From positions 1 through 42,297 of the IMG/VR virus record IMGVR_UViG_3300007540_000031: a DNA stretch of 42,297 nt. One strand, written 5' to 3'. Position 1 is the first letter of the stretch, and each line of letters starts with the position of its first letter. A program made the translations under genes and the position numbers. This stretch comes from a virus. This document shows positions 1,358 through 42,119 of the stretch, one piece after another. The notes beneath the pieces are model-generated. The model saw nothing but the letters and a program-made list of their open reading frames with translations, was not told where the DNA came from and made no database searches.

Positions 1358-1360
1358 AAT

Positions 1361-2635: not shown

Positions 2636-2641
2636 TTTACA

Positions 2642-5600: not shown

Positions 5601-8600
5601 CATCTTTAGCAAGTAAAGATGAAAATACAGCAGGAAATATATTCTATAGTCCATTAGAAAAAGCTATTAACAATCAAAAAATGGAAAAAATGCCTATAGA
5701 AGATTGGAAAGTTTATCTTATAAAAAGAGCAAAAAAACAAGGGTTTACTAATCAATTAGATGCTACAGGTATTCTTGATTGGCTAGATATGTTACAAAGA
5801 AGAAAAGACATATTAGATAAAAATTTACCTAACGCTCCTATAGACATTGATGGCTTTGACCTAGACAACAGAGGTCGTTTATCTAAGTCTGATATTTTAG
5901 CTTGGTTAGGTCAATATGATATAACAGTAGTAGATGTAATACCTGAAGGCCCACTGACTGAGTCTGAAATAGAAAACATGAGAGAGGAGCGTCGGGAATA
6001 TGAAAAATCAGGATATGGGGAATATGAAAGAGATAACCTAAGAGAAGCTATAGAAGCTGAAGCTGGTTTTGTTGATGACTCTATACCTGGTGTATTTAGA
6101 GTGTTTGGTTCTCAAAATAGAGATGCAGACCCAAAATATACAGATGAACCTTATATGATATTTGTAGATAAAAATTTACTTGATGACGAAAAAGAAATGA
6201 CTCCTATTGATGTAGTAGCTTCACAAACTAATGAAGGAACTATTATTGATAGAGGACCAGTACAAGCGTATATTAATTTGGCTAAAGAAAAAGGATGGAA
6301 TATAGAAATAATTGATGAAGGACCATATGCACCTGCAAGAGCGCTTGAAGAATACAGAACGGGAGAAGACCAAGCTTATGATTACCTTTACGAGATTCAT
6401 AATCCACAAATAGAAAAAGTAGATAAGAAATTTGAATTAGTATATAACAGTATGATTGAAGAAAGAGTAGATAACTATATAAGAGAAGTTATAGAAGATA
6501 ATGAGCAAAGAAGATATGCGGGTATGCAAAGAACAGAAGCACAAGGGGATGTGTTTGATAGTGATGATACATTTCTTCCTCAAGAATATTTTGAAATTAT
6601 ATTATCTTTAGATAACACAGGTACGTCTCCAAAGTATGGTTCTTCTAGTAATATTTTTGAGTCATCTCATTGGGAAGGTGTAAACAATCCAATACTTCAT
6701 ATACGTGCAGACATAAGATATGACAGTAAAAATAATAGAGTACTATTTGTAGAAGAAGTACAGTCAGATTGGGCAGAAAAAATAAGAAAAGGTTATTATC
6801 CTGAACTTGCAGCTGCTTTTGTAGAAGACACTCAGTTGTGGACTAAATTAGCTGTAAAAAGAATTATTAGATTAGCTGCAGAACAAGATGTAGATAAAGT
6901 AGCTTTTTTAAATTCTGAACAAGCTCTAATCAATCACAATAGGTCAGACAAAGGTGCTGATTACTACAATACAATATTACCTTCAGTAGCACGTAAAACT
7001 ATAAATAATCTTGAAAACACTAGCAGACAAGAATTAGAGACAATAGTTTTTAAACCTAGATATAAACCAGATAATAAAACTCTTGACTTACTTTTTGAAA
7101 TTTTTAACACACGTGATTTAAATCCTACTACACAAGAAGAAATAAACAAGTTTTTAGAATTAAGGACTAAGTTAACACGTAAATTAAATGCTATATATCC
7201 TACAAAAGGACCAATATCATTTGAATGGGCTTATGGCCTTGCAAAAACATTAAGCGAAGTGACTAACCTAGAGAGAGATTATATACACAGGACTGAATAT
7301 GAAACAACTCCAGATTTATTAAATCCTGCAACTAGAGATGAAGCAAAAAGAAGTATTAGAAATGAACTCTCACAATATCAACTAACTAAAAATAGAATGG
7401 AGGCAGCAGAAAAAAAACTAGCAGCTTTGAAAAGAGAAAATAATTTACTTCGAATCGAAATAAATAGGTTCGAGGCGCTTTTAAATAAGGAAACAGATCC
7501 GTTTAAATCAAATGATATGCGCCAAGAATTAAAGAGGTTATACAACGAGCGAGAAAAAATAAGAGATAATAATAGCCGTCTAGTAGATACAGGCATGGAA
7601 TTAAGAAGAAATTTTGATGCTTATAAATTTGAATTTTTAAGAAACCTTTTAGAAAAAAATATAATAATAAGACCTGAATTAACTAATGAGCACAAAGGGT
7701 TTACTTTGACCCCTAGATTAAAAAAAGTAGCTGAAGCAGGCATGCCCTTATTTGCAAAACAAGGTAGTAAAACTAGAAAACAATTAATGCAAGAAATAGA
7801 AGATGGTAAAACTAACAAAGAAAAACTAAATGACAAACGTAAGAAAGTAGGAAAGAAAACTGATGACCCTGCAGACCCATTTTATAAAAGTAATAAAACT
7901 TTAGGAGAAAAAGTTCGAGGTTTTCAAAATGGTGTATTTGGATATGACATAGGTCTTTATAATAAATTAAAAGATGAAATAGTAAGAGTAAGTAAAAGCA
8001 AGTCTGTTCAAGAGTCAAAAAAATTCATAGAGGATACCTTAGCAAAAATAAGTATAGCTCAAGCAGTTCATGCAGAAACATTAGCAGGAGCATTTAAACA
8101 GTTAGGGGGTATAGTTTTTAACCCAACTATTGAAAAATTTGAAATAATACAAGACGCAAATAACTTAAAATCAATAGAAAAAAAAGTTCGTCAATTTGCT
8201 GAAACTAATTTTAAAAAAGGTTTAGTACTTACACAAGATGATGTAATTGCAGCTGAAAAATTTATCTCTCAAGCTATTACGGCTTTACAATTTAAACGCA
8301 TTGTAGAAAATAATAAAAAGCTTGAAGCTGATGCTAGACTTTTAGTAAGACAAGGCAAAGAAGCAGAAGCCAAAAAAGTAATGGAAGGTTATATTCTTGT
8401 AGACCAAACAGAAGCTCAACTAGATGCTATGACTGACCGTTTTAATCAATACCCAGAACTAAAAGAAATTCAACAATCTTGGATAGGAGTAAAAAACAAT
8501 GTACTTCAATTTTTATTAGAGAGTGAAGTAATAGACCAAGAACAATTTGATGCATATACTTTAGAAGGAGGCGTAATTAAAAACGATGTCTTTATACCTC

Positions 8601-10810
8601 TTTATAGGGAGGGACAACCAGATGTACCTAGGTCTGTTAGAAAAGGAACTAAAAGCGGTAAAGGTATATTTGTTCCAAGACGAGGCTCTATTGAACCAGT
8701 AGATAATGTATTTTCAAACATGAATATTTTTGTTCAAGCAGGTATTACTCAAGGTATAGCAAATAAAACAGCACTTCAAAAAATAAGAACAGCTCAAGAA
8801 GTTCAACTAGAAGATGCTTTAATTGTAAGACCTACTGCAGAAAGAACACCAGGGTTTGAAGAAAACGCAGTAGAAGTAAGTGAAATTGATTCTAATGGTA
8901 AACAAAAAAAACAACTGTATGAATATTCCAATGTAATGTATGCAAACGCTACCAACGGGGCTGCAAAAGCTATGGATATGGGGAATGTATTTGCTAATGC
9001 GTCTACATTGTTAAGAGACCAAATTGTTTTAAACCCTGTATTTGGAGTAGCTCAAACATTTATACAGGATATGTATAGTGCAATGTATACCTCGGGATTA
9101 AGATATGGTTGGCTTATAATTCCTTTAAGAGTATTAAAAGAATTTCCTTTAACTATATTAAATTTAAGTAGCACTCATAATAAATTAAGTAAATTTGGAG
9201 CTGTTGGAGGCTATGCATTTAAACAAAATGATAATACTATTGATTCAGATATAAATGCTCCTGGATTTTATAATGCTTTAATAAGAAGATTAAGTCGCAT
9301 TCCGGGAACTAACCTACCCACAGGTTTAACTCAAGCAGGTGCTATAAGAGTAGGTGATACAAAATTATCTATAGGTGGTCTTTTAAATAGAATTGCTATG
9401 GCTTCTGATAACTCTGTAAGACAAGCAGTATATGAACAAGCGTTATTAGAAAACAAAAGTCAAAGAAGAGCCCTTGAAATGGCTTTTGAAATAATTAACT
9501 TTAGAAAAACAGGAGACCACAAAATAGTTACTGCTGCAAGACAGTATATTCCTTTCTTTGGAGCTGCTCTACAAGCACTATCTGTACAAGGCAAAGTCAT
9601 ACAAGGACTTGTTAAACAACAATCAGGAGTAACTCCTACTGATTTAAAAGAAGCACGAATAAACTTTTTTATTACTTGGGCTGGAACAGCAGGTATAACT
9701 TTGTTGTATAACATATTAATGGACGACGAAGAAGATAAAATAATAGAATCCTTTTCTCCTCAACCTATGTCTAAAGAACTTAAAAAACAACTTAGAGACG
9801 TAAGAAAAAACTTTGGTCAACTGGATAACAAAATTAGGGATAGAAGATTTATTATAGGAGATGATGGATTTCATTTAACTCTTCGTCCAGACTTTTTTAC
9901 TTACATAGGAAAAATAATACCCGAACAAACATACCAAACTATAATTGCAGAAAATCAAGACGCTGCTAAATTTTGGACTAGTATTAAAAGAAATTTAAGA
10001 GAGATAGTATCATTAAACTTAATACCTCAATTAGTACGTCCTTTAGTAGATGTGTATTATAACCAAGACAGCAGAACAGGAAGACCAATTATTCCTAGAA
10101 GAATGGAAGAACTTACTCCTGAAATGCAGTCTACTCCAGGTACTTCTGAAGCAGCTAAAAAAATAGGGGGTATTATTGGGTACTCTCCTATACTAGTAGA
10201 TTATTTCTTTAGACAATATACAGGGTACACTGGAGGTTTAGTATCAATGCTATCCGATGCATACTTCTTAGAAGCTGATACCAATCCTCTTAGAAAAAAT
10301 AGACCTGCTAAAACCACAAGAGATCAAATAGCTTCTTTTCCTGGTATGACTAACTTCTTTTCAAGAGATAAAGATAATAGATTTATGTCTGATTTCTATG
10401 AATTAAAAAATAAAACATCTCAAGTTGCTGCTATATTTAACGCTTTAAATAAATCTCCTAACCCTGAAGATGGACTTAAAGCTCAAAAATTTCTTAATGA
10501 AGGTAATAATCAAAAACTTTATGATGCAAATCAAAGAATAGAAGTTATACAAAACACACTTACTAAAATAAGACAACGTCGTCAAAATATTTATGACCAA
10601 CCTGCAAACGCTATGTATGATGGTAGACTAATGACAGATGAATTTAAACGATTATTATTAAAAGATTTAGACCGACAAGAAGTTAATGCTCTTGACACCA
10701 TACATAATATAAGAGTAGGTATTTATGGGACTAATCCTTTTTATAAAAAAGATACAGAAGAGTCTTTCCCTGGATTTGATATGACTGATTTACTTGATAA
10801 AGGTAGCTAA
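2642..10810 (+). CDS. Giant polyvalent virion protein with metallopeptidase-like domain
   Basis: 2722 residues, start ATG with AGGA upstream. The N-terminus has three near-identical copies of VEQALRDGYTQEQI (about residues 5-18, 62-75, 90-103). A Gly/Ala hydrophobic stretch follows (about 185-235), then charged coiled regions. A zincin-like motif HEIGAH lies at about residues 863-868 with a downstream EVIANIAED that could supply a further ligand. After it come segments typical of phage and plasmid polyvalent proteins: FYSPLEKAI...DWLDMLQRRKDIL near 1000-1065 and VLFVEEVQSDW near 1368. The C-terminal third (LLRDQIVLNPVFG near 2130, and a hydrophobic segment near 2345) resembles large polyvalent protein-associated C-terminal domains. 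Such proteins are packaged and delivered into the host with the DNA. The peptidase activity is inferred from the motif only. It converges with the minus-strand gene next to it, overlapping by 4 bases. Confidence 0.7.
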   Translation: MAFDVEQALRDGYTQEQIDAYIQQNNITPKPIEEVTEEVTEEVITAPTPQPSPEPTQKTFNVEQALRDGYTQEQIDKHLKLKERKKTFNVEQALRDGYTQEQINTYLLEGPERAGFFEAAFGTLGDQFDMADVGLSTILPGGKDANQAAAEQIKQQQTEPQGAKFSYAAIENAFKRGGIEGVKELVLQLPGGAGTALGAIGPSIAAGIAGGVVGGPVGALVAIAAASFLPNLGGNVIEQAGADIAEGRPLDIEVATAVTAALAQAGIDVVPFKVSKALKKLVGIKPKVGPELTKKIAEQGLTKAIGKDAAGIIAAELPAEISQEIIQKYQAGVDPFTPEAMAEYKEVGAVVALTGGLGVYTGPKTRSQARRAIEIEETEKAEKDFEDENKKDPRGKKVKSILDDEKGKIKVEEEEASARKISRTKLTTINEEMLKDLGISPKTNAGKELLGKDITDLDNIEMIERILDNENLTVKSNKKAVENFKRKLKRDRKKILKAQKEALNEESTLKGKRTRARDKLSNKSKSVVTTGTGSSDTNSMDTNQSGAGESVSGARISDDTLKKVRAKAKKDSEILSPYNRGFVDSERAIEQHLGKEAAAEYRRLVDIESKRKVEEYQKKQKSKRKKQKAVPKKTTDFSSSDIRKEQEKQFADAVVNASEKELNEAGFESYIDIDKDGNETKKYREIKTKKPLFAKEPTDTEKKLTEIRKRKKLAIETFRNQTEQDGGIPSPAYRKPIIQLQQMEDELVKQDSKEKKEIADQKRKDDLPPEQQELFSKTEESIPDTGETQQSIMGSFVEEFGNNVNLGVRRGILNIVDTVANLPSSIPNLDSLPANVKAIYFDGKAYFIADRITKEDAPRMLLHEIGAHYGLEGMLGKANYDRTVKSLRSKKESDKEIKAAFDYVRDNYPELNESSNDFIQEVIANIAEDSPQNTVFRKIVGYIKNFLSKLGMGWDVDNISVAQIQDMVQHSVRVALSQPEVSSDTKASLASKDENTAGNIFYSPLEKAINNQKMEKMPIEDWKVYLIKRAKKQGFTNQLDATGILDWLDMLQRRKDILDKNLPNAPIDIDGFDLDNRGRLSKSDILAWLGQYDITVVDVIPEGPLTESEIENMREERREYEKSGYGEYERDNLREAIEAEAGFVDDSIPGVFRVFGSQNRDADPKYTDEPYMIFVDKNLLDDEKEMTPIDVVASQTNEGTIIDRGPVQAYINLAKEKGWNIEIIDEGPYAPARALEEYRTGEDQAYDYLYEIHNPQIEKVDKKFELVYNSMIEERVDNYIREVIEDNEQRRYAGMQRTEAQGDVFDSDDTFLPQEYFEIILSLDNTGTSPKYGSSSNIFESSHWEGVNNPILHIRADIRYDSKNNRVLFVEEVQSDWAEKIRKGYYPELAAAFVEDTQLWTKLAVKRIIRLAAEQDVDKVAFLNSEQALINHNRSDKGADYYNTILPSVARKTINNLENTSRQELETIVFKPRYKPDNKTLDLLFEIFNTRDLNPTTQEEINKFLELRTKLTRKLNAIYPTKGPISFEWAYGLAKTLSEVTNLERDYIHRTEYETTPDLLNPATRDEAKRSIRNELSQYQLTKNRMEAAEKKLAALKRENNLLRIEINRFEALLNKETDPFKSNDMRQELKRLYNEREKIRDNNSRLVDTGMELRRNFDAYKFEFLRNLLEKNIIIRPELTNEHKGFTLTPRLKKVAEAGMPLFAKQGSKTRKQLMQEIEDGKTNKEKLNDKRKKVGKKTDDPADPFYKSNKTLGEKVRGFQNGVFGYDIGLYNKLKDEIVRVSKSKSVQESKKFIEDTLAKISIAQAVHAETLAGAFKQLGGIVFNPTIEKFEIIQDANNLKSIEKKVRQFAETNFKKGLVLTQDDVIAAEKFISQAITALQFKRIVENNKKLEADARLLVRQGKEAEAKKVMEGYILVDQTEAQLDAMTDRFNQYPELKEIQQSWIGVKNNVLQFLLESEVIDQEQFDAYTLEGGVIKNDVFIPLYREGQPDVPRSVRKGTKSGKGIFVPRRGSIEPVDNVFSNMNIFVQAGITQGIANKTALQKIRTAQEVQLEDALIVRPTAERTPGFEENAVEVSEIDSNGKQKKQLYEYSNVMYANATNGAAKAMDMGNVFANASTLLRDQIVLNPVFGVAQTFIQDMYSAMYTSGLRYGWLIIPLRVLKEFPLTILNLSSTHNKLSKFGAVGGYAFKQNDNTIDSDINAPGFYNALIRRLSRIPGTNLPTGLTQAGAIRVGDTKLSIGGLLNRIAMASDNSVRQAVYEQALLENKSQRRALEMAFEIINFRKTGDHKIVTAARQYIPFFGAALQALSVQGKVIQGLVKQQSGVTPTDLKEARINFFITWAGTAGITLLYNILMDDEEDKIIESFSPQPMSKELKKQLRDVRKNFGQLDNKIRDRRFIIGDDGFHLTLRPDFFTYIGKIIPEQTYQTIIAENQDAAKFWTSIKRNLREIVSLNLIPQLVRPLVDVYYNQDSRTGRPIIPRRMEELTPEMQSTPGTSEAAKKIGGIIGYSPILVDYFFRQYTGYTGGLVSMLSDAYFLEADTNPLRKNRPAKTTRDQIASFPGMTNFFSRDKDNRFMSDFYELKNKTSQVAAIFNALNKSPNPEDGLKAQKFLNEGNNQKLYDANQRIEVIQNTLTKIRQRRQNIYDQPANAMYDGRLMTDEFKRLLLKDLDRQEVNALDTIHNIRVGIYGTNPFYKKDTEESFPGFDMTDLLDKGS
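2654..2949 (+). repeat. Three identical 41-base direct repeats inside the giant virion gene
   Basis: The same 41 bases, starting GTAGAACAAGCATTAAGAGA, occur at 2654-2694, 2825-2865 and 2909-2949. They encode the VEQALRDGYTQEQI unit. Identity at the DNA level, including synonymous positions, points to recent duplication or gene-conversion-like homogenisation. Between copies 1 and 2 is a micro-repeat of GAAGTTACTGAA units encoding EEVTEEVTEEV. Confidence 0.9.
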
Positions 10811-24461: not shown

Positions 24462-24867
24462 TTTCTATTTCCTTTAACTGTTTGTCGGTCATCACTATTA
24501 TATAAGTGTCAGTATAAACCCTCCACCCTATATCTTGGAAGTCAGATTCACCATCATCTAGATACTGGTGATGCACGTAGAAATCAGCTTCAGAATAGTT
24601 TTCTAGCCAAAATTTTATTGGAGTGCTTATGGCATTTATCATGGTAAGTTTTAAATGTAGCCATGCAGGTAAGTCTTCAGAAGAAATAAATCTTGTAGTG
24701 TTTAAGTTAATATAAATTTTGTAGCGTGGGAATTGTCGAAGGGTGTCGACGGAATCGATTTGCATCAAAACCATACGACACCCTTCATTATTACTATTGA
24801 AGTGAGTAACAGGAGAAAGTTTTACATCTTCTCCTCCAATACTTGAGTTTCTGTCTCTGTAGTGCAT
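24439..24867 (-). CDS. Hypothetical protein carrying one palindrome site
   Basis: 142 residues from the ATG at 24867, but this overlaps the upstream gene by 46 bases; an internal ATG at residue 32 (RMVLMQID), preceded by GAAGGG, is an alternative start. The sequence contains DSVDTLRQFPRYKIYINLN and a beta-rich C-terminus (WRVYTDTYIIVMTDKQLKEI). The VDTLRQ hexapeptide is encoded by the 20-base dyad at 24733 and not by protein homology to others carrying it. Function unknown. Confidence 0.55.
   Translation of the reverse strand: MHYRDRNSSIGGEDVKLSPVTHFNSNNEGCRMVLMQIDSVDTLRQFPRYKIYINLNTTRFISSEDLPAWLHLKLTMINAISTPIKFWLENYSEADFYVHHQYLDDGESDFQDIGWRVYTDTYIIVMTDKQLKEIESGKREES
24733..24752. repeat. 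20-base dyad site 1
   Basis: TTGTCGAAGGGTGTCGACGG: one arm TTGTCGA, other TCGAC plus two mismatches, six-base core AGGGTG. Lies inside the gene at 24439-24867. Confidence 0.75.
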
Positions 24868-25946
24868 TCATCACCTTTTGCAATTAGCAACCAATATATA
24901 GAGAACGGATTAGATGATTGTTGTTCACTATAAATTTTTGCTTTGTATAAAACACCCAACTCTTCAATCCAAGTTAGATAGCTACTGTTAATCCAATACT
25001 CGTCAATAATCTGAAAAGAATAGTTATCATTTTCTTTCTCTTCCAAAGTAATTTTAAGCATTGTGAGTATAGAGTGTATATCATCATAAGACTTATAATC
25101 TTCTATACCTTGAATGACTTCTGTATCTTGTAGTTTCCAATACTGTCTATCACCATGCTTATCATATTTTTCATCATGTACATAAGTACCTGCTATCACA
25201 GTTTCAGTACAAGCGTTTATACCAAAAGCATAAAATCCATTCTTTGTTTCAGAGTCCACTATTTCTTTAGCAGACTCATAAGTCTCGCATAATTTTTTAC
25301 CTTTGTCTATAAACTCATTAAAGAATTTATCAAATTCGTGAGCTATAGGTTTTTTATCTCCATACACATTATCAATAAGTGCAAGCATAGAGTCTCTTCC
25401 CTCATAACTATCAAGTAAAGATTTTTGATGAGATTTAGATTTATCGTGCATACTTGTAAGAGCTTTACCATCAACTTGATAATGACCTTTAGTAGTCGTT
25501 GCATCTATCAGGTGGTCATAAGCACTTGCAAAGTTAATATCTTTCTTATGGATAGTTTTAATTATCTGAGATATTTTTACAGAAGATATTGTTTTCCTGT
25601 CCCAAGAGTTTCTACCTCTCTCTTTGACTGTTGCTCTGTAATGAAAAGAATACCTGTCATTTGGTGTATCATAAAATACTAATGCAGTAGGTAGACCTCG
25701 ATGACTTACCATAAAACAATCCATGATATTACAATTGTTTACGCTTGATTCTGATGGATTATTCACACCATATCTATATTGATATTTACCATCATATTCG
25801 TGCGATGATATTGGTTGTACAGAACTTACCTTAAGTTCAAAGACTAGATAGAGTTCTTGTATCAGAGGATAAACTTTTGCATTTTTTATCTGTTCCTCCA
25901 ACTCTTTAGTATATAGTTCTGGTTCAATACAATCTTTTATATTCAT
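24822..25946 (-). CDS. Conserved phage protein, unknown
   Basis: 374 residues, ATG with AAGGAAAAAC upstream, and directly downstream of the VWA/MoxR cluster. It has beta-rich stretches (YQYRYGVNNPSESSVNNCNI, DRYSFHYRATVKERGRNSW) and helical parts (FDKFFNEFIDKGKKLCETYE). The pattern of a folded N-terminal domain about 1-150 and another about 230-370 resembles uncharacterised phage proteins near MoxR-like ATPase genes, with no recognised catalytic motif. The association with the MoxR/VWA genes is inferred from position only. Confidence 0.5.
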   Translation of the reverse strand: MNIKDCIEPELYTKELEEQIKNAKVYPLIQELYLVFELKVSSVQPISSHEYDGKYQYRYGVNNPSESSVNNCNIMDCFMVSHRGLPTALVFYDTPNDRYSFHYRATVKERGRNSWDRKTISSVKISQIIKTIHKKDINFASAYDHLIDATTTKGHYQVDGKALTSMHDKSKSHQKSLLDSYEGRDSMLALIDNVYGDKKPIAHEFDKFFNEFIDKGKKLCETYESAKEIVDSETKNGFYAFGINACTETVIAGTYVHDEKYDKHGDRQYWKLQDTEVIQGIEDYKSYDDIHSILTMLKITLEEKENDNYSFQIIDEYWINSSYLTWIEELGVLYKAKIYSEQQSSNPFSIYWLLIAKGDECTTETETQVLEEKM

Positions 25947-25967
25947 AGTTTTTCCTTATAGTTTAAT

Positions 25968-27197
25968 TTATACATTGTCCCAAGACACTGCTGCGTGACC
26001 AGGACGGCTTGTAAAGTCTCTCTCTTTGTTTTGAGTAACAACCCACAAAGTCGGTGTTGGTATATCCCAACTTATCTCATCTTCACTTTCCACATAACCA
26101 TCAGTAAATACAATGATAGCTTCAGGCTTTATGTTGTGTTCGACTAGATACTTACTTACGCATGACACCCTAGTACCCCCACCCCCATCAGGTTTAAGTA
26201 AGTCTCGAATTTGTTGGTAGTCACCTTTGTTAAACACTTGCTCTTTGGCAACTTCATAGTCCCACCAAAGCACTCGTATTTTTTCAGGAGTTACTGTATC
26301 GCATATAGATACAATCTCGCTACCAAACTCTGCCAACTCTTTCTCTCCAATAGACGCACTCGTATCAATAGCAAGTACCAACTCCCCAATCGTTTCGTTC
26401 TCCATAGATGGTAGGTACAGGTCGTTTGCCATCATGCGTTTGTTAAACTTACGCCATGTATACTCATCGCTACCCCTGATTGCCGATTGTATAAAATCTC
26501 TCAAGACATCTCGCCAATCAATCTTAGGTTCAAACAACTCTTCAATGGCTCTTGGTATTTTGTTACCAAACTTCCCTGCAAAAATAGCACCCTCTTTCAA
26601 AGCATTCTCAACTTTTTGTTTTATCTCTTTGAGTTCTTTAGGAGTTTTTTTGGTGTCTGCAAAGTTATGTTCGTCTAGAGTCTTTAAACTATCAGACGAA
26701 ACTCCTTTACCCGTAGAAGTGTTGCCGTTCGATCTTGCGTCAGAATTGTCGACACCTTTCGACAACTGTTGTTCAAGGTCATCATACACTTCCTTGACAC
26801 TCCAATTGTGATACTTGTCTTCATACAATCCACCCTTCGGCAGCGTACATAAGTTCTTGTCTTTGAGATGGACAATGACATCGTTGACAACATAATCTGC
26901 ACAAGCATTCATAAGCATAGGGTTCGCTTGAAACAATGTTTTGAATCTGTCAACATGATTGAGTGCAATGTGTAAGTTCTCATGTAATACCAATGCTCTC
27001 AACTCAGAGTCATTTAGTGACTCAATAAACTTTCTACCATAGTATTTATTGATACCATCTGTATACGCTGTTGGTATGTCATCTTTAACTTCTGATTTAC
27101 CCATCATGATAATGCCTGAATACAAGGCAGTCTCTTGATGTTTCATCAAGGCCACGTGTGCTCTCTTGAGTCTTTGGCTCTCGTTGTAATTCTTCAT
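25968..27197 (-). CDS. VWA-domain protein with putative metallopeptidase domain (MoxR partner)
   Basis: 409 residues, ATG after AGGAGAAAACT. The N-terminal part has LVLHENLHIALNH (H72, E73, H76, H81), an HExxH zinc-peptidase-like motif of the DUF2201 N-terminal type. The C-terminal part is a von Willebrand A domain with MIDAS residues: LAIDTSASIG (DxSxS), GGGGTRVS (Thr) and VFTDGYV (Asp). This two-domain architecture occurs next to MoxR AAA+ ATPases, which are thought to act as chaperones for VWA partners that insert metal or remodel complexes. The next gene downstream in transcription order is the unknown 374-residue protein; the MoxR ATPase is just upstream. The dyad at 26746 lies in this gene. 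Confidence 0.8.
   Translation of the reverse strand: MKNYNESQRLKRAHVALMKHQETALYSGIIMMGKSEVKDDIPTAYTDGINKYYGRKFIESLNDSELRALVLHENLHIALNHVDRFKTLFQANPMLMNACADYVVNDVIVHLKDKNLCTLPKGGLYEDKYHNWSVKEVYDDLEQQLSKGVDNSDARSNGNTSTGKGVSSDSLKTLDEHNFADTKKTPKELKEIKQKVENALKEGAIFAGKFGNKIPRAIEELFEPKIDWRDVLRDFIQSAIRGSDEYTWRKFNKRMMANDLYLPSMENETIGELVLAIDTSASIGEKELAEFGSEIVSICDTVTPEKIRVLWWDYEVAKEQVFNKGDYQQIRDLLKPDGGGGTRVSCVSKYLVEHNIKPEAIIVFTDGYVESEDEISWDIPTPTLWVVTQNKERDFTSRPGHAAVSWDNV
26746..26765. repeat. 20-base dyad site 2
   Basis: TTGTCGACACCTTTCGACAA: both 7-base arms perfect, core CACCTT. It encodes LSKGVDN in the minus-strand VWA gene. Confidence 0.85.
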
Positions 27198-27206
27198 AGT
27201 TTTCTC

Positions 27207-28259
27207 CTAGAATAAGTAATGATTTTCTTTTGCCCACTTTGCAATCTCAGGATTATTCCTTGCTATCTTTACAGTCTTAGAGTTTAGTGTAATCATAGAA
27301 AAGAAAACGGCTTGCATCTCATTACTTTCTATACGATTGAGATACTTCATAAAGGAAGTTAGTGTAGCCGAGTTATCCATCTTGTCCACTGCTTGGAACA
27401 TAAGCATCAACTGAGCAGATTTCTGTTCAGGTATCTTTGCCGACATAGGACTTGTAATAATATCTGTAAAGACTGGAAGGTCTTTCTCTAGTCTCAAGAA
27501 TGCACTGAAATCAACACTTGCACTTTGTCCAATCGTACCACTCAATGCACACATGGTAGCGTTATCCCCTAGCTTTTCATGGTTCTCAACAATCACCGAA
27601 CACTTATCCAACGAACGAGGCGAGACAAACGACAACTGTTGTTTCTTTGGATTGAATATGTAAGGATTGTTTTCTTGTCCTTCATCGAGATAACTCGCCA
27701 AACATCTAGGGAACGTATGCACAAAGGCTCGGACTAGATGAGACACACTATTTTCAGTCGCCCATACAAGCCATTCATCAACACTAGGTTTTTCCATTCG
27801 CATAATACAAACTCTATTTCCTGAGTGAGCTAGCATACCATCACCTACTCCGTCTGATTGATTGTTAGAAGTACCAAATACTATTGAGCCTTCAGGCAAT
27901 GGTGTATCACCAATAGTTCTTTCAAGCATAAGTCTAGTAAACATAACTTGTAACAACTTAGGTGCTTTCATAAACTCATCAAGTAGTATCACCTTAGGTT
28001 TGTTACTATCAAGTTTAAAGATAGTACCTACATAATGTTCTAGTGATTTAGTATCATGATTAGGTATGGTCATAGCTATGTCAGACATATCTTTGACAGG
28101 ACAATCTACATAGATGTAGTCATACTTATCTCCCAAATCTGACTCCAACATTTTTAGCAATGAAGTTTTGCCGCACCCAGGTTCGCTTTGTATAATCGGT
28201 GTAATGGTTGTACCGATTGTTGGTATGATATTTCGTAGTTCTTTAATTGTTACTTTCAT
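27207..28259 (-). CDS. MoxR-type AAA+ ATPase
   Basis: 350 residues, ATG with GGAGAAAAAC. Walker A EPGCGKTS at 26-33, Walker B KVILLDEF (D94, E95), sensor 1 VFGTSNN near 160, and a C-terminal helical lid. Similar AAA+ proteins are annotated as CobS-like in T4-like cyanophages. They power assembly or activation of complexes, usually with a VWA-domain partner, which is the next gene downstream here (10 bases apart). The phage role of the pair is not known to me. Confidence 0.85.
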   Translation of the reverse strand: MKVTIKELRNIIPTIGTTITPIIQSEPGCGKTSLLKMLESDLGDKYDYIYVDCPVKDMSDIAMTIPNHDTKSLEHYVGTIFKLDSNKPKVILLDEFMKAPKLLQVMFTRLMLERTIGDTPLPEGSIVFGTSNNQSDGVGDGMLAHSGNRVCIMRMEKPSVDEWLVWATENSVSHLVRAFVHTFPRCLASYLDEGQENNPYIFNPKKQQLSFVSPRSLDKCSVIVENHEKLGDNATMCALSGTIGQSASVDFSAFLRLEKDLPVFTDIITSPMSAKIPEQKSAQLMLMFQAVDKMDNSATLTSFMKYLNRIESNEMQAVFFSMITLNSKTVKIARNNPEIAKWAKENHYLF

Positions 28260-28274
28260 AGTTTTTCTCCGTAG

Positions 28275-29186
28275 TTAATTAAATTTAGATAGTATGTCAT
28301 CTAGGTCAGTCTTTACTTTCTCTCTTACTGCGTCACTATCTCTCAATAGTTCCGTTGATACACCCGTGAGGGTTGTCTCAAGTTCATTGACAACTTGAGT
28401 TAGCTTTACGCTTTTCTCATTGTCAATAGGCTTGAAGTTCTTAATCGTATTAGCTAGTGCTTTTGCTCGATTAAATGTAGTGTCATAGATAGGACGTTTC
28501 TTAAAGATAGGGTTACCCTCTTTGTCTTTACCCTCATTGACACCACAACAATGACTCAGACTTTCTAGTACATCTGTAATTCTAGTAGTCTGTTCATCAA
28601 TTACTTTATGCACTATCTCATCTGCTTGGTCTTGGTATTGAGACTTCAAATCATTCGCAATATCCTCTGACACTTGACATCTGAAATCATGACTAGGTAC
28701 TTCTGCTACATATAATTTCATACCGAACTTTTGTCGAAGCGTGTCGACATCAGGATAATCATTACTATCAAACATATCCCCTTGCTTGAATGCCATGTCA
28801 GACACTAGGTTCTGGTAGTTAGTTAGGAAGTCTTCTACGGCAGTATTAAACTCACTCTCAAACTCATGATATTCTTTTTTAAACTTCTCAATATCAATAG
28901 TCGGTAGTAAATCTTGTGAGTTATTCCAACGATATGTACTTGTCTTTGCCCACTTGTAGATCAACTGACGTAGCTTTATTATCCTGTGATGTTTAGGGTT
29001 CTTAGCAAACAGATACTTGGTAAACATACCCATACCTGACTCTGCTTTTTTCATTGTAGTAACCTCATCTGAGATTCCCTTGTCTTGTTTGGTTGCCGTC
29101 CATACATTGACATCAACTGATACCAATACACTTGACGTAGCCAAAGACACAATGTGTTTCGGTTGTTCTAGTTCAAAGTTCATCAT
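28275..29186 (-). CDS. Conserved protein of the MoxR/VWA cluster
   Basis: 303 residues with GGAGG before ATG, 15 bases upstream of the MoxR gene. The N-terminus has VSVDVNVWTATKQDKGISDE and the rest is mostly helical, including a central YHEFESEFNTAVEDFLTNYQ and a C-terminal coiled region (LTQVVNELETTLTGVSTELL). The layout resembles DUF3150-like proteins that accompany MoxR/VWA genes, but I cannot confirm this. It probably forms a third component of the module. A dyad (28731) lies in it and encodes DVDTLRQ. Confidence 0.55.
   Translation of the reverse strand: MMNFELEQPKHIVSLATSSVLVSVDVNVWTATKQDKGISDEVTTMKKAESGMGMFTKYLFAKNPKHHRIIKLRQLIYKWAKTSTYRWNNSQDLLPTIDIEKFKKEYHEFESEFNTAVEDFLTNYQNLVSDMAFKQGDMFDSNDYPDVDTLRQKFGMKLYVAEVPSHDFRCQVSEDIANDLKSQYQDQADEIVHKVIDEQTTRITDVLESLSHCCGVNEGKDKEGNPIFKKRPIYDTTFNRAKALANTIKNFKPIDNEKSVKLTQVVNELETTLTGVSTELLRDSDAVREKVKTDLDDILSKFN
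28731..28750. repeat. 20-base dyad site 3
   Basis: TTGTCGAAGCGTGTCGACAT: arms TTGTCGA and TCGACA(T), core AGCGTG identical to sites at 31294, 31893 and 32366 (latter two inverted). Confidence 0.85.
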
Positions 29187-29676
29187 TACTTACCTCCTCT
29201 TGTTTAGGTTTTGTCGATACGTTTCGACGATGTCTGTCTGCAGTATCAAAGTTTGTACTTTCTATTTGATAATATGAAACAACTCTAGCTAACTCATACC
29301 CTTCGTTCTCATACCTAGTCTCGACATCACCCTCTTCCTCGCCAATTCTTATGTATGCCGCATGAATATAATCTTCATAATCCTTACCAATCATATCCAT
29401 GAGAGCCGTGAAAGATTGTACCTCATCAAAACTGTCATACCACTTGACATTATCAAACTCTATGAGGATAGCATTGTTATCACTATCCATTCCCCCTCTC
29501 CACCACAAGTCTGATTCTTTCATAGCTTCGTACTCACCCGATTGGTCAATCATAGACATTGCATGTTGCGTGGTCGGACAGTTCCTCGCTTCGGCTAGAA
29601 ATATAAACCACTTTTCTAGACTTTCCTCGTTGCGAGTAGGTTGTATTGCATAAATTACTTCGCTTCTATATCCCAT
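29173..29676 (-). CDS. Conserved hypothetical phage protein
   Basis: 167 residues, strong AAGGAGG before ATG. N-terminal MGYRSEVIYAIQPTR and a central GGMDSDNNAILIEFDNVKWY suggest a small alpha/beta domain; a tail from about residue 115 (AYIRIGEEEGDVETRYENEG) is acidic and the last 25 residues are basic then acidic. MGYRS-type proteins are common, uncharacterised phage genes. It overlaps the downstream gene by 14 bases. Confidence 0.55.
   Translation of the reverse strand: MGYRSEVIYAIQPTRNEESLEKWFIFLAEARNCPTTQHAMSMIDQSGEYEAMKESDLWWRGGMDSDNNAILIEFDNVKWYDSFDEVQSFTALMDMIGKDYEDYIHAAYIRIGEEEGDVETRYENEGYELARVVSYYQIESTNFDTADRHRRNVSTKPKQEEVSNDEL
29211..29230. repeat. 20-base dyad site 4
   Basis: TTGTCGATACGTTTCGACGA: arms TTGTCGA and TCGACGA, core TACGTT. 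It encodes RRNVSTK near the C-terminus of the minus-strand 167-residue protein. Confidence 0.75.
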
Positions 29677-29894
29677 TACTTTTTACCTCCTTTATCATCT
29701 AAGTTAATACAGAACATCGGTGGTTCTACTTTCACAAACACTCTACTGTTCGGACTTATAGATTCTAGTAGAAACCCTTTCTTTGCATGGCAGTGATACA
29801 TTTTCTTAGGTTCAACCTGCAACATTATGTAAGTTAATGCCACTATCCATGCTACTGCTACACCAATCAAAAACGGTGGTAGATACTTAATCAT
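29676..29894 (-). CDS. Small single-pass membrane protein
   Basis: 72 residues, AAGGAGG before ATG. An N-terminal transmembrane segment (LPPFLIGVAVAWIVALTYIM, about 5-24) is followed by a hydrophilic domain with two Cys (YHCHAKKGF, PPMFCINL), ending in KGGKK. Stop and start overlap with neighbours by 1-4 bases. It may be an inner-membrane protein with a periplasmic or cytoplasmic Cys-containing domain; role unknown. Confidence 0.6.
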   Translation of the reverse strand: MIKYLPPFLIGVAVAWIVALTYIMLQVEPKKMYHCHAKKGFLLESISPNSRVFVKVEPPMFCINLDDKGGKK

Positions 29895-30100
29895 TTTACT
29901 AACCCTCCTTTGTTGTTGATACCTTTCAATAAGCTCAAGTCAGTAATCAACATATAGTTCGACTTGTGCATAGGCACGACAGTATGTTTTTTACTCTGGG
30001 CAACTTTGTCGCCACAAGATAAACACACATCGTAGCCTATCGCTTTGCGTTTGATACTGTATTCAACACCACATGATTTGCATATAGGTTTGATTTTCAT
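29891..30100 (-). CDS. Small zinc-ribbon protein
   Basis: 69 residues, AGGAGG ahead of ATG. PICKSCGVEYSIKRK and VCLSCGDKVAQ give a two-CxxC zinc ribbon at about residues 6-32. Its ATG overlaps the previous stop (4 bases) and its stop overlaps the membrane protein start. Zinc ribbons of this kind bind nucleic acid or protein partners; nothing more specific is visible. Confidence 0.6.
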   Translation of the reverse strand: MKIKPICKSCGVEYSIKRKAIGYDVCLSCGDKVAQSKKHTVVPMHKSNYMLITDLSLLKGINNKGGLVK

Positions 30101-30456
30101 GAGCCAACTACCTCCTGTCGATACGCTTCGACAATCTTTGCTTTGGAAAACAAAAAGTCAACCATAGAACCTTGGCGAACTAATAGCTTCATGTCATTAG
30201 TATCCAACCATGTTTCGACAGGCTGCGTAGGCCTCGCTTGGGATTGGTGTTTAGATGTTGTAACACTATATTTATCTTTGTTACCGAACCACATAGTAGC
30301 ATTTCGGTCATAGATATACATTGGGAAGTGATACCCGTACGAATACACAATGTATAGATGGATATGATTTTCAGAAAATGTATTAGCACCATTGAAAAGT
30401 CTTAGTCCATCAACGTATTCTGCAGCATCACAATTGTTGATTTTAGGTATACTCAT
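30097..30456 (-). CDS. Hypothetical protein (start at internal ATG)
   Basis: 119 residues from the ATG at 30456, which overlaps the stop of the tiny membrane-protein gene upstream (ATGA) and has AGGGAG nine bases ahead. An upstream ATG at 30519 in the same frame lacks a ribosome site and would bury this overlap, so I reject it. The protein has NHIHLYIVYSYGYHFPMYIY near the middle and a helical C-terminus (IVEAYRQEVVGS). Function unknown. The dyad at 30115 encodes part of IVEAYRQ. Confidence 0.6.
   Translation of the reverse strand: MSIPKINNCDAAEYVDGLRLFNGANTFSENHIHLYIVYSYGYHFPMYIYDRNATMWFGNKDKYSVTTSKHQSQARPTQPVETWLDTNDMKLLVRQGSMVDFLFSKAKIVEAYRQEVVGS
30115..30134. repeat. 20-base dyad site 5
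   Basis: CTGTCGATACGCTTCGACAA: arms (C)TGTCGA and TCGACAA, core TACGCT, near the 3' end of the 119-residue gene. A degenerate half (TTTCGACAGG) is also present at 30213-30222. Confidence 0.8.
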
Positions 30457-30560
30457 ATCAATATCTCCCTTACTAGATAGCCGAGGATAAATCCAATAGC
30501 TAGTCCGAGAAGATACCAATTGCGTTTCTTACGACGTACTTCAAATGTCTCATAACTCAT
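30453..30560 (-). CDS. Tiny 35-residue membrane protein
   Basis: ATG at 30558-30560 with AGGAG nine bases upstream; TGA at 30453-30455 forms an ATGA overlap with the next gene. The translation starts MSYETFEVRRKKRNW and continues YLLGLAIGFILGYLVREILI, one transmembrane helix flanked by a positively charged N-terminal end. It is the promoter-proximal gene of the long minus-strand run and would be missed by length cut-offs. Function unknown. Confidence 0.65.
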   Translation of the reverse strand: MSYETFEVRRKKRNWYLLGLAIGFILGYLVREILI

Positions 30561-30588
30561 AATAAACTCCTGTACTGATTAACTGAAT

Positions 30589-30608
30589 ATGTCGAAACGT
30601 GTCGACAA
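30589..30608. repeat. 20-base dyad site 6
   Basis: ATGTCGAAACGTGTCGACAA, core AACGTG, between the 35-residue gene start and its promoter, i.e. in the leader of the leftward operon. Confidence 0.85.
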
Positions 30609-30688
30609 AACTTACGTAACTAAAAGTGATAAAGATGTAGACATAACGGAAAACTAGATGTAATGGCTAAGTCTCTATCACTATATAT

Positions 30689-30717
30689 ATTATCTCATAA
30701 CTTGACATATAAGTCAA
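30689..30717 (-). promoter_or_regulatory. Sigma70-type promoter of the long leftward operon
   Basis: Minus strand: TTGACT (30712-30717), 17 bases, GATAAT (30689-30694); each hexamer matches five of six consensus bases. The -35 box lies within TTGACATATAAGTCAA (30702-30717), an inverted repeat that could be an operator. Transcription would start near 30682 and run through dyad site 6 into the 35-residue gene. Confidence 0.6.
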
Positions 30718-30840
30718 TAGATACACCATTTAGTAAGTAAGATATTGACGTTGGTCTAACCCACGTAGTTACATATTGTTAGTCGGTGGACTCCCATCCC
30801 TGCTACGTAAGTATTTGTTTTCACTGACATAATACAAAAA

Positions 30841-31211
30841 GTTCACGGTTCTGTTTAGCCCTAAGTTTACTAATGTGAACTGGAACTGGACATATAGTAA
30901 TATGTAAAGAGTTAGTAAGTCCCTGATGCTACAGGTAAGTTCTAAAGTTTCTATACTTATTATTATATTATTACTTTACTATCTACTACTGGTAGTTCCT
31001 AAGTTCCGTGTTTTTTTAAGGTTGTATCCTCGGTGCTATAAATTATTTCACCGCGTAATCGGTACTAACGATTACTTAAATATCAAAAACCATTCACTAT
31101 CATACAAAACATGGAACTATGGAACTATCCAAGTTAATCAAACACTTAACATGGAACTTTCATAGGAACCACGTGCGATCAAAACGGAACTTAGCTGCAA
31201 CGTCCCGGAAC
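30841..31211. repeat. GGAAC/GTTCC word cluster (iteron-like)
   Basis: GGAAC occurs at 31113, 31121, 31153, 31165, 31186 and 31207, with GTGAACTGGAACTGGA near 30876 and reverse words (GTTCAC, GGTTC, two GTTCC) between 30841 and 31005. The spacings are irregular, so this is a motif cluster and not a clean tandem repeat. Confidence 0.5.
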
Positions 31212-31293
31212 CCTCACTAACTATCAAAGATATAGCCACGTAGAAACTGGTCATCCCAAGTGGGTACGCTTTACATATTTTTAAGTTTACATA

Positions 31294-31313
31294 TTGTCGA
31301 AGCGTGTCGACAA
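31294..31313. repeat. 20-base dyad site 7
   Basis: TTGTCGAAGCGTGTCGACAA, the best match to the consensus: both 7-base arms perfect. TTTACATA precedes it, as also near site 9. Confidence 0.9.
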
Positions 31314-31316
31314 AAC

Positions 31317-31402
31317 TCACCATCACACGCAAGGCCAAGAAACTGGTTAAAAACTGGCGACCCACGCAAGGCCAGAAATAATCTCACCATCACAGAAACT
31401 GG
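31317..31402. repeat. Composite intergenic repeats, copies 2 and 3
   Basis: TCACCATCACA at 31317-31327 and 31384-31394; AAACTGG at 31340, 31351 and 31396; CACGCAAGGCCA directly repeated at 31326-31337 and 31363-31374 (37 bases apart). A related CCACGTAG-AAACTGG is at 31236-31250. Confidence 0.75.
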
Positions 31403-31443
31403 TGACAAATTGATCCACGTGGGCAAAACGGCAGCACAAAAAA

Positions 31444-31463
31444 AAGCCCACCGAAGTGGGCTT
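31444..31463 (-). terminator. Rho-independent terminator of the 237-residue gene
   Basis: GCCCAC-CGAA-GTGGGC (31446-31461); on the minus strand the hairpin is followed by eight U residues. It lies 18 bases beyond the stop codon. Confidence 0.85.
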
Positions 31464-31480
31464 CAAGTTCCTAGAAAAGT

Positions 31481-32194
31481 TTATGAAAGTTTTTTCAAGT
31501 CTGCTATAAATTTCTTAGCAAGAGCTTCAAATTTATCAACGTCAATCATATCATTTTTATCATTGATACATTTTCTATTGAGACTTCCTGAGTAAGGCAT
31601 ATCAGGGGAACACCTATCAGGCTCGCCTAAAATATTCCATGCACAAGTCTCAACAAAATCTCTATCGGCTTTTGGTTTAGTTTCTGTCTCATCTTGAGTA
31701 TCAAGAGCCTTAGCTTGATTTTGCCAATACTTGATTCTTTTTGCCCAAACATCTTTTCTGAATTTTCGGTTAATTTCTGAGACTACTTTTTTAACTGCCT
31801 TTAGTTTGCTACTAGGTTTAGTATTTGAAACCATAGTGTCAATGGTAAGATGAAAAAGTTTAGAAGTATCCTCTAATTTTTCTGCGTGTTTTTTGTCGAC
31901 ACGCTTCGACAATCCGTCAACCTCTTGATAATATCCGAGAGGGGATTTTTTTATCAAAGATAATTCATTAATCCATTCAATAGCAATTTGTCGCATGGTA
32001 ACATCTATGAATTCAAGAGGAAGTGTCATTGGTGTTGCTTCATACCACTTGCCCTCTATTAGATTATCGTTCCATTCTTCAAAGATGCTACCTCTTTCTC
32101 CATCTGTAGAAACTAACGTTCCTGTTTGTGCTACTAAGTCTTTTGCTTCAATGTTACCAAGTGCTAGGTTTACTGCTTTTTTAGTAGTATTCAT
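31481..32194 (-). CDS. Stand-alone leftward gene, unknown function
   Basis: 237 residues, ATG with AAGGA upstream, own promoter at 32256-32283 and own terminator. Central YWQNQAKALDTQDETETKPK and a Cys-containing FVETCAWNILGEPDRCSPDM are visible; the C-terminus is helical and basic (FEALAKKFIADLKKLS). Overall composition is mixed helical, with no catalytic motif. An isolated gene surrounded by operator-like repeats could be an early regulatory or host-takeover gene; this is inference. Dyad site 8 lies inside it and encodes LSKRVDK. Confidence 0.6.
   Translation of the reverse strand: MNTTKKAVNLALGNIEAKDLVAQTGTLVSTDGERGSIFEEWNDNLIEGKWYEATPMTLPLEFIDVTMRQIAIEWINELSLIKKSPLGYYQEVDGLSKRVDKKHAEKLEDTSKLFHLTIDTMVSNTKPSSKLKAVKKVVSEINRKFRKDVWAKRIKYWQNQAKALDTQDETETKPKADRDFVETCAWNILGEPDRCSPDMPYSGSLNRKCINDKNDMIDVDKFEALAKKFIADLKKLS
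31893..31912. repeat. 20-base dyad site 8
   Basis: TTGTCGACACGCTTCGACAA: the exact reverse complement of site 7, both arms perfect. Confidence 0.9.
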
Positions 32195-32255
32195 AATGAA
32201 TCCTTATATAGTTTTTAAAGTATGACAAAGCGTTTTTCTCTTTACCATAGTATAT

Positions 32256-32283
32256 ATTATACTCTCATAATTGGTTATTACAA
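32256..32283 (-). promoter_or_regulatory. Promoter of the 237-residue gene
   Basis: Minus strand: TTGTAA (32278-32283), 16 bases, perfect TATAAT (32256-32261). Start would fall near 32249, about 55 bases ahead of the ATG. The composite repeat lies directly upstream of the -35 box, a usual place for an activator site. Confidence 0.6.
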
Positions 32284-32303
32284 TAGATACGCCAAATATA
32301 TTT

Positions 32304-32331
32304 TCACTATCACAGGTAGCAAAACTGGCGA
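32304..32331. repeat. Composite intergenic repeat, copy 4
   Basis: TCACTATCACA, GGTAGCA and AAACTGGCGA in the same order and close spacing as copy 1 at 23856, here upstream of the promoter of the 237-residue gene. Confidence 0.75.
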
Positions 32332-32365
32332 TTTTCCCTTTATAATCAAAGACTTACTTTACATA

Positions 32366-32385
32366 TCGTCGACACGCTTCGACGA
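32366..32385. repeat. 20-base dyad site 9
   Basis: TCGTCGACACGCTTCGACGA, core CACGCT; each arm differs from the consensus by one symmetrical change. Preceded by TTTACATA like site 7. Confidence 0.8.
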
Positions 32386-40298: not shown

Positions 40299-41228
40299 AT
40301 GGCGATTTCAAGAGCCCAGCTCCTTAAGGAGCTATTACCAGGACTTAACGCTTTATTTGGTTTAGAGTATGAAAAATATGGCGAAGAGCATAAAGAACTT
40401 TATGAGACCGAGTCTTCAGACCGTTCTTTTGAAGAAGAAACAAAACTAGCTGGCTTTGCAGGTGCACCTCTGAAATCTGAAGGAGCAGCGATTGCGTATG
40501 ACAACGCACAAGAAGCTTTTACAGCTAGGTACAATCACGTAACAATTGCTTTAGGATTCAGTTTAACTGAAGAAGCGGTTGAGGATAATCTATATGATAG
40601 TCTTTCAGCTCGTTATACTAAAGCTCTTGCTCGTTCAATGGCAAACACTAAGCAAGTTCGTGCAGCTAATGTTTTAAACAACGGCTTTAACGGTGCTTTC
40701 TTAGGTGGTGACAATCGTTCACTATTTGGTACAGCCGCTGGCGGTGCAGTTACTAACCACCCATTAGTTTCAGGTGGTACAAACAGTAACGTACAGGCAG
40801 TTGCAACAGACCTTAACGAAACAGCATTAGAAAACGCAGTGATTCAAATCGCAGCGTGGACCGATGAAAGAGGGTTATTGATTGCTGCTAAACCTCGTAA
40901 GTTGGTAATTCCACCAGGATTACAATTCGTTGCTACTCGTTTATTAGACACCCAACAGCGTGTTGGTACAGCTGATAACGACCTTAACGCATTGAGAAAC
41001 AATGGTGCAATTCCAGAAGGTTACACAATCAATCACTATCTAACAGACGGTGATGCATATTTCTTAACAACCGACGTTCCTAACGGTATGAAGCATTTCG
41101 AAAGAACTCCGCTTACTACTTCTATGGACGGTGACTTCGACACAGGCAATGTTAGATACAAAGCTCGTGAAAGATACTCATTTGGTTGGTCAGATCCTCT
41201 CGGTATGTGGGGTTCACCAGGTGCTTAG
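40299..41228 (+). CDS. Major capsid protein
   Basis: 309 residues, strong AAGGAG before ATG. Starts MAISRAQLLKELLPGLNALF, followed by YEKYGEEHKELYETESSDRS and GFSLTEEAVEDNLYDSLSAR, the layout of HK97-fold heads related to Mu gpT-like major head subunits. Late-operon position after scaffold and decoration-type genes and a terminator just behind support the identification. It should be the most abundant virion protein. Confidence 0.85.
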   Translation: MAISRAQLLKELLPGLNALFGLEYEKYGEEHKELYETESSDRSFEEETKLAGFAGAPLKSEGAAIAYDNAQEAFTARYNHVTIALGFSLTEEAVEDNLYDSLSARYTKALARSMANTKQVRAANVLNNGFNGAFLGGDNRSLFGTAAGGAVTNHPLVSGGTNSNVQAVATDLNETALENAVIQIAAWTDERGLLIAAKPRKLVIPPGLQFVATRLLDTQQRVGTADNDLNALRNNGAIPEGYTINHYLTDGDAYFLTTDVPNGMKHFERTPLTTSMDGDFDTGNVRYKARERYSFGWSDPLGMWGSPGA

Positions 41229-41917: not shown

Positions 41918-41956
41918 ACTCATGAATTTACTTAGTGCACAAATGTAACTGAAAGA

Positions 41957-41982
41957 TATAATATTTGTATCAGCAATGCTGA
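41957..41982 (+). promoter_or_regulatory. Promoter-like -10 box and dyad before the PqqA-like gene
   Basis: TATAAT at 41957-41962; no good -35. Just downstream is TCAGCAATGCTGA (41970-41982), a perfect 6-base-arm inverted repeat around one base, placed at or after the expected transcription start like an operator or 5' hairpin. Confidence 0.45.
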
Positions 41983-42006
41983 AATCTAATATAAAGGAGA
42001 AATACC

Positions 42007-42081
42007 ATGGCTTGGACTAAACCATCAGCGACTGAAATGCGTTTCGGTTTTGAAGTAACAATGTACGTAATGAACAAGTAA
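42007..42081 (+). CDS. pqqA: PqqA-like PQQ precursor peptide
   Basis: 24 residues: begins MAWTKPSATEMRFGFEVT and ends MYVMNK. PqqA is the ribosomal substrate from which PqqE links a Glu to a Tyr to start pyrroloquinoline quinone synthesis. The defining E-x-x-x-Y pair is present as E16-V-T-M-Y20, inside RFGFEVTMY, which matches the conserved core of gamma- and betaproteobacterial PqqA; W3 and K5-P6 also match the family's start. Length (22-29 typical) fits. AAAGGAGA ends six bases before the ATG, a very strong ribosome site. A promoter-like box lies upstream and a terminator follows the stop by 18 bases, giving a stand-alone unit. No pqqB-E gene is visible, so the host's enzymes would have to process it. 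Role as cofactor booster or as a competitor of host PqqA is inference. Confidence 0.8.
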   Translation: MAWTKPSATEMRFGFEVTMYVMNK

Positions 42082-42099
42082 TTGTTTAGTTTTAACTAA

Positions 42100-42119
42100 G
42101 GGACTTCGGTCCCTTTTTT
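42100..42119 (+). terminator. Terminator after the PqqA-like gene
   Basis: GGGAC-TTCG-GTCCC (42100-42113) followed by six T. The stable TTCG tetraloop makes this a clear Rho-independent terminator. Confidence 0.9.

Follow-up and report, generated by a model that had tools for sequence, protein, structure and literature searches.

The window analysed here, a linear IMG/VR contig of 42,297 bases and 36% G+C, carries a stand-alone transcription unit whose product, judged by its sequence, is a genuine phage PqqA, the peptide precursor of the cofactor PQQ. Together the results make it quite likely that the phage, under host PQQ control, provides the substrate that PQQ synthesis uses up, sustaining methanol oxidation during infection.

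The pqqA cassette and its candidate operator

The encoded peptide matches the full Pfam PqqA model with 43.5 bits against a cut-off of 21.1, and the NCBIfam equivalog TIGR02107 with 39.8 bits against a cut-off of 20 (Table 1); no PqqA family was matched in PHROGs. An earlier note on this DNA had called the frame PqqA-like, naming a crosslink pair and an RFGFEVTMY core, and had advised a search with the family model. The matches to both profiles are significant, and the translation contains both the E16-x-x-x-Y20 pair and the core. Binding of PqqA by PqqD and crosslinking by PqqE at E-x-x-x-Y are part of the making of PQQ. At about 70 bases, pqqA is shorter than the 90 bases that common gene callers require. 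The earlier note saw no other pqq gene, and tblastn with PqqB, PqqC, PqqD and PqqE likewise returned no homologue, an absence that holds for this linear contig only.

Table 1. Features of the pqqA cassette and its context in the window
Feature	Position	Strand	Evidence
Major capsid protein, context gene	40299..41228	+	pqqA cassette downstream in relatives
Operator-like dyad TCATGAATTTACTTA, common to host pqqA promoters	41920..41934	+	host-only matrix score 19.6
TATAAT -10 box	41957..41962	+	sequence; 22 nt after operator
5'-terminal hairpin TCAGC-AAT-GCTGA, predicted transcript start	41970..41982	+	dyad in most relatives
Ribosome binding site AAAGGAG	41993..41999	+	sequence; 7 nt before ATG
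pqqA, 24-aa PQQ precursor MAWTKPSATEMRFGFEVTMYVMNK	42007..42081	+	PF08042 E=2.8e-11; TIGR02107 E=2.7e-10
Intrinsic terminator AAGGGAC-TTCG-GTCCCTT + T-run	42098..42119	+	1 found, 0.2 expected

The ribosome site, the -10 box with a dyad and the TTCG-loop terminator described in the earlier note were each located. Its account of the promoter holds for the -10 box and the adjoining dyad but missed the 15-bp operator-like dyad further upstream, which is the top-scoring site of the window with a matrix trained on host promoters. The 16-mer TCATGAATTTACTTAG has a single occurrence in the window. The pqqA promoter of the window shows no consensus sigma-70 -35/-10 pair, and the centre of the operator would lie at about -42, provided that the predicted -10 box is right. 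Ribosome sites comparable to that of the window are present in nearly all relatives, and comparable terminators occur in its lineage. A dyad at the position of the hairpin is kept in most relatives with differing sequences, as judged by eye; taken across all phage pqqA upstreams, the bias towards folding is modest, with a mean z of -1.1.

Expectation-maximisation on 114 host pqqA upstreams yielded the motif TCATGAattTCaTtA, present in about 90% of them, and a separate run on 123 phage pqqA upstreams yielded TaATGATTTTCctTA. A matrix built from host pqqA promoters alone, with a threshold score above 11, identified the operator in 54% of the 123 phage upstreams (odds ratio 176), leaving 46% of phage cassettes below threshold; the controls gave 0.7% for the upstreams of 1,074 other ORFs of the same loci and 1.5% for random windows. 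MEP301 and Venkman each have a single site scoring above 12.5 genome-wide, directly upstream of pqqA, and in P19250A, as in the window, the top operator site is that of pqqA. The Melnitz operator, TAATGATTATCCTTA, lies 64 nt upstream of the pqqA start codon, and in MEP402 no operator was found within 160 nt of pqqA. A second strong match in the window, TAATGATTATCCTGA (28750-28764, minus strand, score 18.9), falls inside the coding frame 28275-29186. The distance from operator to TATAAT in phages peaks sharply at 22-23 nt (31/58), which places the operator near -42, a position that would be typical of activators replacing a -35 element.

The operator is common to the host pqqA and pqqBCDE promoters, as would be looked for in a PQQ regulon, and the dyad is a candidate operator of a PQQ regulon in Methylophilales. 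Of 44 perfect-pattern sites across six host genomes, 19 fall no more than 250 nt upstream of pqqA, against 0.03 expected. In OM43 LSUCC0665 the operator precedes the pqqA copies and pqqB, and none was found in the locus searched for its xoxF-type gene. The dyad ATGA-N3-TCAT presumably resembles the core of Fur-family boxes, which we treat as a lead only. We infer a regulator protein that would act through the operator by either activation or repression. Since the phage cassette keeps the operator of host pqqA and pqqBCDE, it is probably controlled by the host PQQ regulator.

Distribution, carrier lineage and selection

Comparison with 50,697 phage records by tblastn returned 12 PqqA matches, of which 10 are genuine phage: nine records of cultured OM43/LD28 methylophages (Venkman, P19250A, MEP301, MEP401, MEP402 and four Melnitz strains) and one uncultured spring podovirus. 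The gene is common to all of these cultured methylophages, a statement that covers the matching phages, the taxonomy also listing MEP431-434, HIM624-A and others. It is apparently unannotated in them; no phage record inspected bears a pqqA annotation, and the feature lying under the match, where there is one, is an antisense hypothetical protein. The other two records (CAKLQF020000010 and CAKLQH020000055, 'Acinetobacter phage MD-2021a', L009 and L010) contain pqqBCDE, and one of them a polyphosphate kinase; they were read as bacterial chromosome and left out because they were the only matches with pqqB-E and are chromosome-like. All representative phage peptides pass TIGR02107, with six other phage PqqAs scoring 34-41 bits.

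By comparison of their genes, the pqqA phages, including the window, fall into six unrelated lineages with near-identical pqqA genes; five of them have cultured members that infect methylotrophs, and head and replication genes are unrelated among the six. The Venkman-like pair has 22 ORFs in common, the remaining genomes share few ORFs with one another and no head module, and Melnitz is T4-like. Cultured genomes were compared for this purpose instead of pqqA loci, nearly all of which were merged via shared genes by single-linkage clustering.

A degenerate R-x-G-F-E-V-T-M-Y pattern has at least 120 matches in IMG/VR. All 119 of the 119 sites inspected among the matches listed are complete PqqA ORFs, which rules out chance pattern matches, and nearly all of these have a ribosome site. 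The total was estimated, not counted, from a sub-pattern that fits 9 of the 119 listed matches and itself has at least 120 matches, giving about 1,600 or more pqqA contigs (95% range about 860-3,400). Thus the gene is probably present on more than 1,500 contigs of uncultured viruses in IMG/VR. No PqqB, PqqC, PqqD or PqqE was found in any genuine viral pqqA locus examined, nor was a methanol dehydrogenase homologue. Among the neighbours of divergent pqqA copies are terminases, portals and head proteins, which belong to several unrelated families. Divergent PqqA-type peptides such as RLGFEVTMYFKNR, on viral contigs L013, L026, L036, L084 and L116, occur without the Methylophilales operator; these may be phages of other PQQ makers, e.g. 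methanotrophs.

In the window, terminase and capsid homologues identify a bona fide phage genome bearing a host-type gene, as the definition of an auxiliary metabolic gene (AMG) demands; the phage hallmarks around divergent copies and the host-like peptide and operator further support this assignment. The terminase is about 50% and the capsid 61-66% identical to those of the nearest relatives, the SAR11 podoviruses HTVC023P/HTVC027P, DSL-LC04, 023Pt_psg01 and MinM2-like phages. The capsid gene is followed by two small ORFs and then pqqA. This slot is likewise occupied in 13 of 80 capsid relatives, with pqqA lying 155-590 nt beyond the capsid gene. Presence of pqqA on the capsid tree needs seven state changes most parsimoniously, at least two of which are forced by well-supported branches, indicating that the gene comes and goes in this lineage. 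Such turnover is as expected if the gene tracks host type, and its presence in only 13 of 80 relatives means either that it is dispensable there or that its absence marks other hosts.

Two further features of the contig were observed. Nine near-TGTCGAAGCGTGTCGACA palindromes spread across 7.6 kb of a leftward-transcribed gene block (24734-32384) look like a putative phage-specific operator array; palindromes of this type give 19 strand matches in the window against 0.27 expected. Additionally, positions 2642-10810 encode a 2,722-residue protein that has an LPD38 domain and, at its N-terminus, three UBA-like repeats of nearly identical sequence (VEQALRDGYTQEQI).

Phage pqqA is under purifying selection, as expected of an AMG maintained for its protein. 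In a set of phage genes found via the capsid gene and not via the peptide, pN/pS was 0.112 overall and 0.020 in core codons 15-19 of the 23-mer. The earlier note had made conservation of E16 and Y20 in related phages a test of its proposal. Both residues are kept in 132 of 132 phage sequences retrieved with a pattern that leaves the two positions free, and also in the capsid-found set, so that the conservation holds after this check for pattern-selection bias. Six peptides are identical across the phage and host sets, and the closest host pqqA has a median DNA identity of 92% to the phage gene.

Proposed role and alternative explanations

We propose that phage pqqA would give extra PqqA during infection, which host PqqD, PqqE, PqqB and PqqC, none of them phage-borne, would convert to PQQ. 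The cofactor would keep the PQQ-dependent methanol dehydrogenase supplied, and methanol oxidation would in turn feed phage replication. If host transcription fails in infection, PqqA may become scarce first, and the phage copy behind the host PQQ operator would refill it. Expression in infection, processing of the peptide and higher PQQ are thus predicted steps. Each PQQ made uses up one PqqA, whereas PqqB-E are catalysts that can act again, which would explain why only pqqA is carried. In cell-free extract of Gluconobacter, added PqqA gave PQQ with 70-80% conversion (cited in PMC9851590), indicating that the PQQ enzymes can take extra peptide. In Acetobacter pasteurianus, overexpression of pqqAB raised PQQ by only 29%, versus eightfold for pqqABCDE (PMC7936290), indicating that PqqA alone is not limiting everywhere.

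The earlier note had offered two mechanisms, a rise in PQQ output and a decoy, and the identity of many phage and host peptides favours the former. A decoy would occupy PqqD/PqqE and lower host PQQ or block methanol oxidation, and a strongly expressed cassette could indeed titrate PqqD. Such a role is highly improbable, because E16 and Y20 are not lost and the often host-identical phage peptides should be processed; the operator held in common with host pqq genes also speaks against it. Alternatively, the cassette could be a passive passenger that recombination brought in from the host and from which the phage draws no benefit. Its patchy presence in the window lineage (at least two, most parsimoniously seven, gains or losses) and the median 92% DNA identity of the nearest host pqqA are what a passenger would show. 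However, the gene is under purifying selection, recurs in six unrelated lineages and retains the operator, its spacing and often the terminator, and we regard passive carriage as improbable.

PQQ is redox active, and the peptide or a modified form of it might do another job in infection, for instance in signalling or redox protection; the phage operator might instead titrate the PQQ regulator. The recurrence of the operator across unrelated lineages is in line with this, as is a PqqA-annotated RiPP family tied to defence genes by co-expression (PMC11118758). Nevertheless, PQQ supply accounts more simply for both the coding selection on the peptide and its near confinement to phages of the methylotroph type, and a separate role of this kind has little probability.

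A broader claim may be considered, for which the chances seem about even: that phages of methylotrophs almost universally have a substrate-only pqqA on the host PQQ operator, acquired by many unrelated lineages of phage and hidden by gene-length cut-offs, since PqqA would be the component of C1 energy metabolism that becomes scarce in infection. If true, the cassette would mark such phages at the sequence level. Methylotrophs of the OM43 type oxidise methanol in coastal water via PQQ-dependent enzymes, and phage pqqA offers a handle on how phages steer C1 metabolism as well as a cheap host marker for uncultured phages.

Known systems and the host arrangement

Cyanophage psbA is alike in principle, in that the phage supplies a fast-consumed part of the host energy system; it differs in that psbA encodes a turned-over protein subunit, whereas PqqA is a substrate peptide. 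Whether phage pqqA genes had been described was left open in the earlier note. They have, in two virome surveys. The Lake Baikal Methylophilaceae virus VP_266 (Coutinho 2020, PMC7678222) has a phage PqqA proposed as a methanol-oxidation AMG but is T4-like and also carries a methanol dehydrogenase, of which no homologue was found in the viral loci examined here; the accessible part of that report does not mention other pqqA lineages or the operator. Virus-borne pqqA/pqqE/pqqD from reservoir sediment are also listed as AMGs (PMC13188868, 2026) but interpreted as serving phosphate solubilisation, with neither a stand-alone cassette nor a connection to methylotrophs in the accessible part of the text. 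The methylophage papers searched make no mention of pqqA. Thus the occurrence of pqqA in cultured methylophages, its breadth and the common operator appear to be new, no report of them having been found in the open-access literature searched.

The phage cassette most closely resembles host pqqA of Methylophilales. Among the listed matches to EMRFGFEVTMY in 84,980 genomes, nearly all are Methylophilales or unclassified Betaproteobacteria. This pqqA type occurs in 1-12 copies in each of 18 such genomes, often away from pqqE, and PqqE scores above cut-off in 16 of these genomes. The earlier note had suggested looking for pqqB-E in predicted hosts; the matching Methylophilales have pqqE, multi-copy pqqA and, where looked for, pqqB-D, and the host of the window phage is presumably a methylotroph. 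Several pqqA copies with a single pqqBCDE have already been noted in this family (PMC4109929). The host copies resemble the phage gene in their full-length profile match, in the six identical peptides, and in forming stand-alone, multi-copy cistrons behind the same dyad, often away from pqqBCDE. An orphan pqqA is therefore normal for the host, and the phage mirrors the host arrangement. The phage copy differs in having no pqqB-E beside it, in a dyad nearer the start codon and in a fixed distance from dyad to -10. OM43 LSUCC0665 has pqqBCDE and three pqqA copies far from it, and two tandem pqqA genes about 200 nt apart stand behind one operator (L375, 5053-5314); similar tandem pairs occur in other marine genomes.
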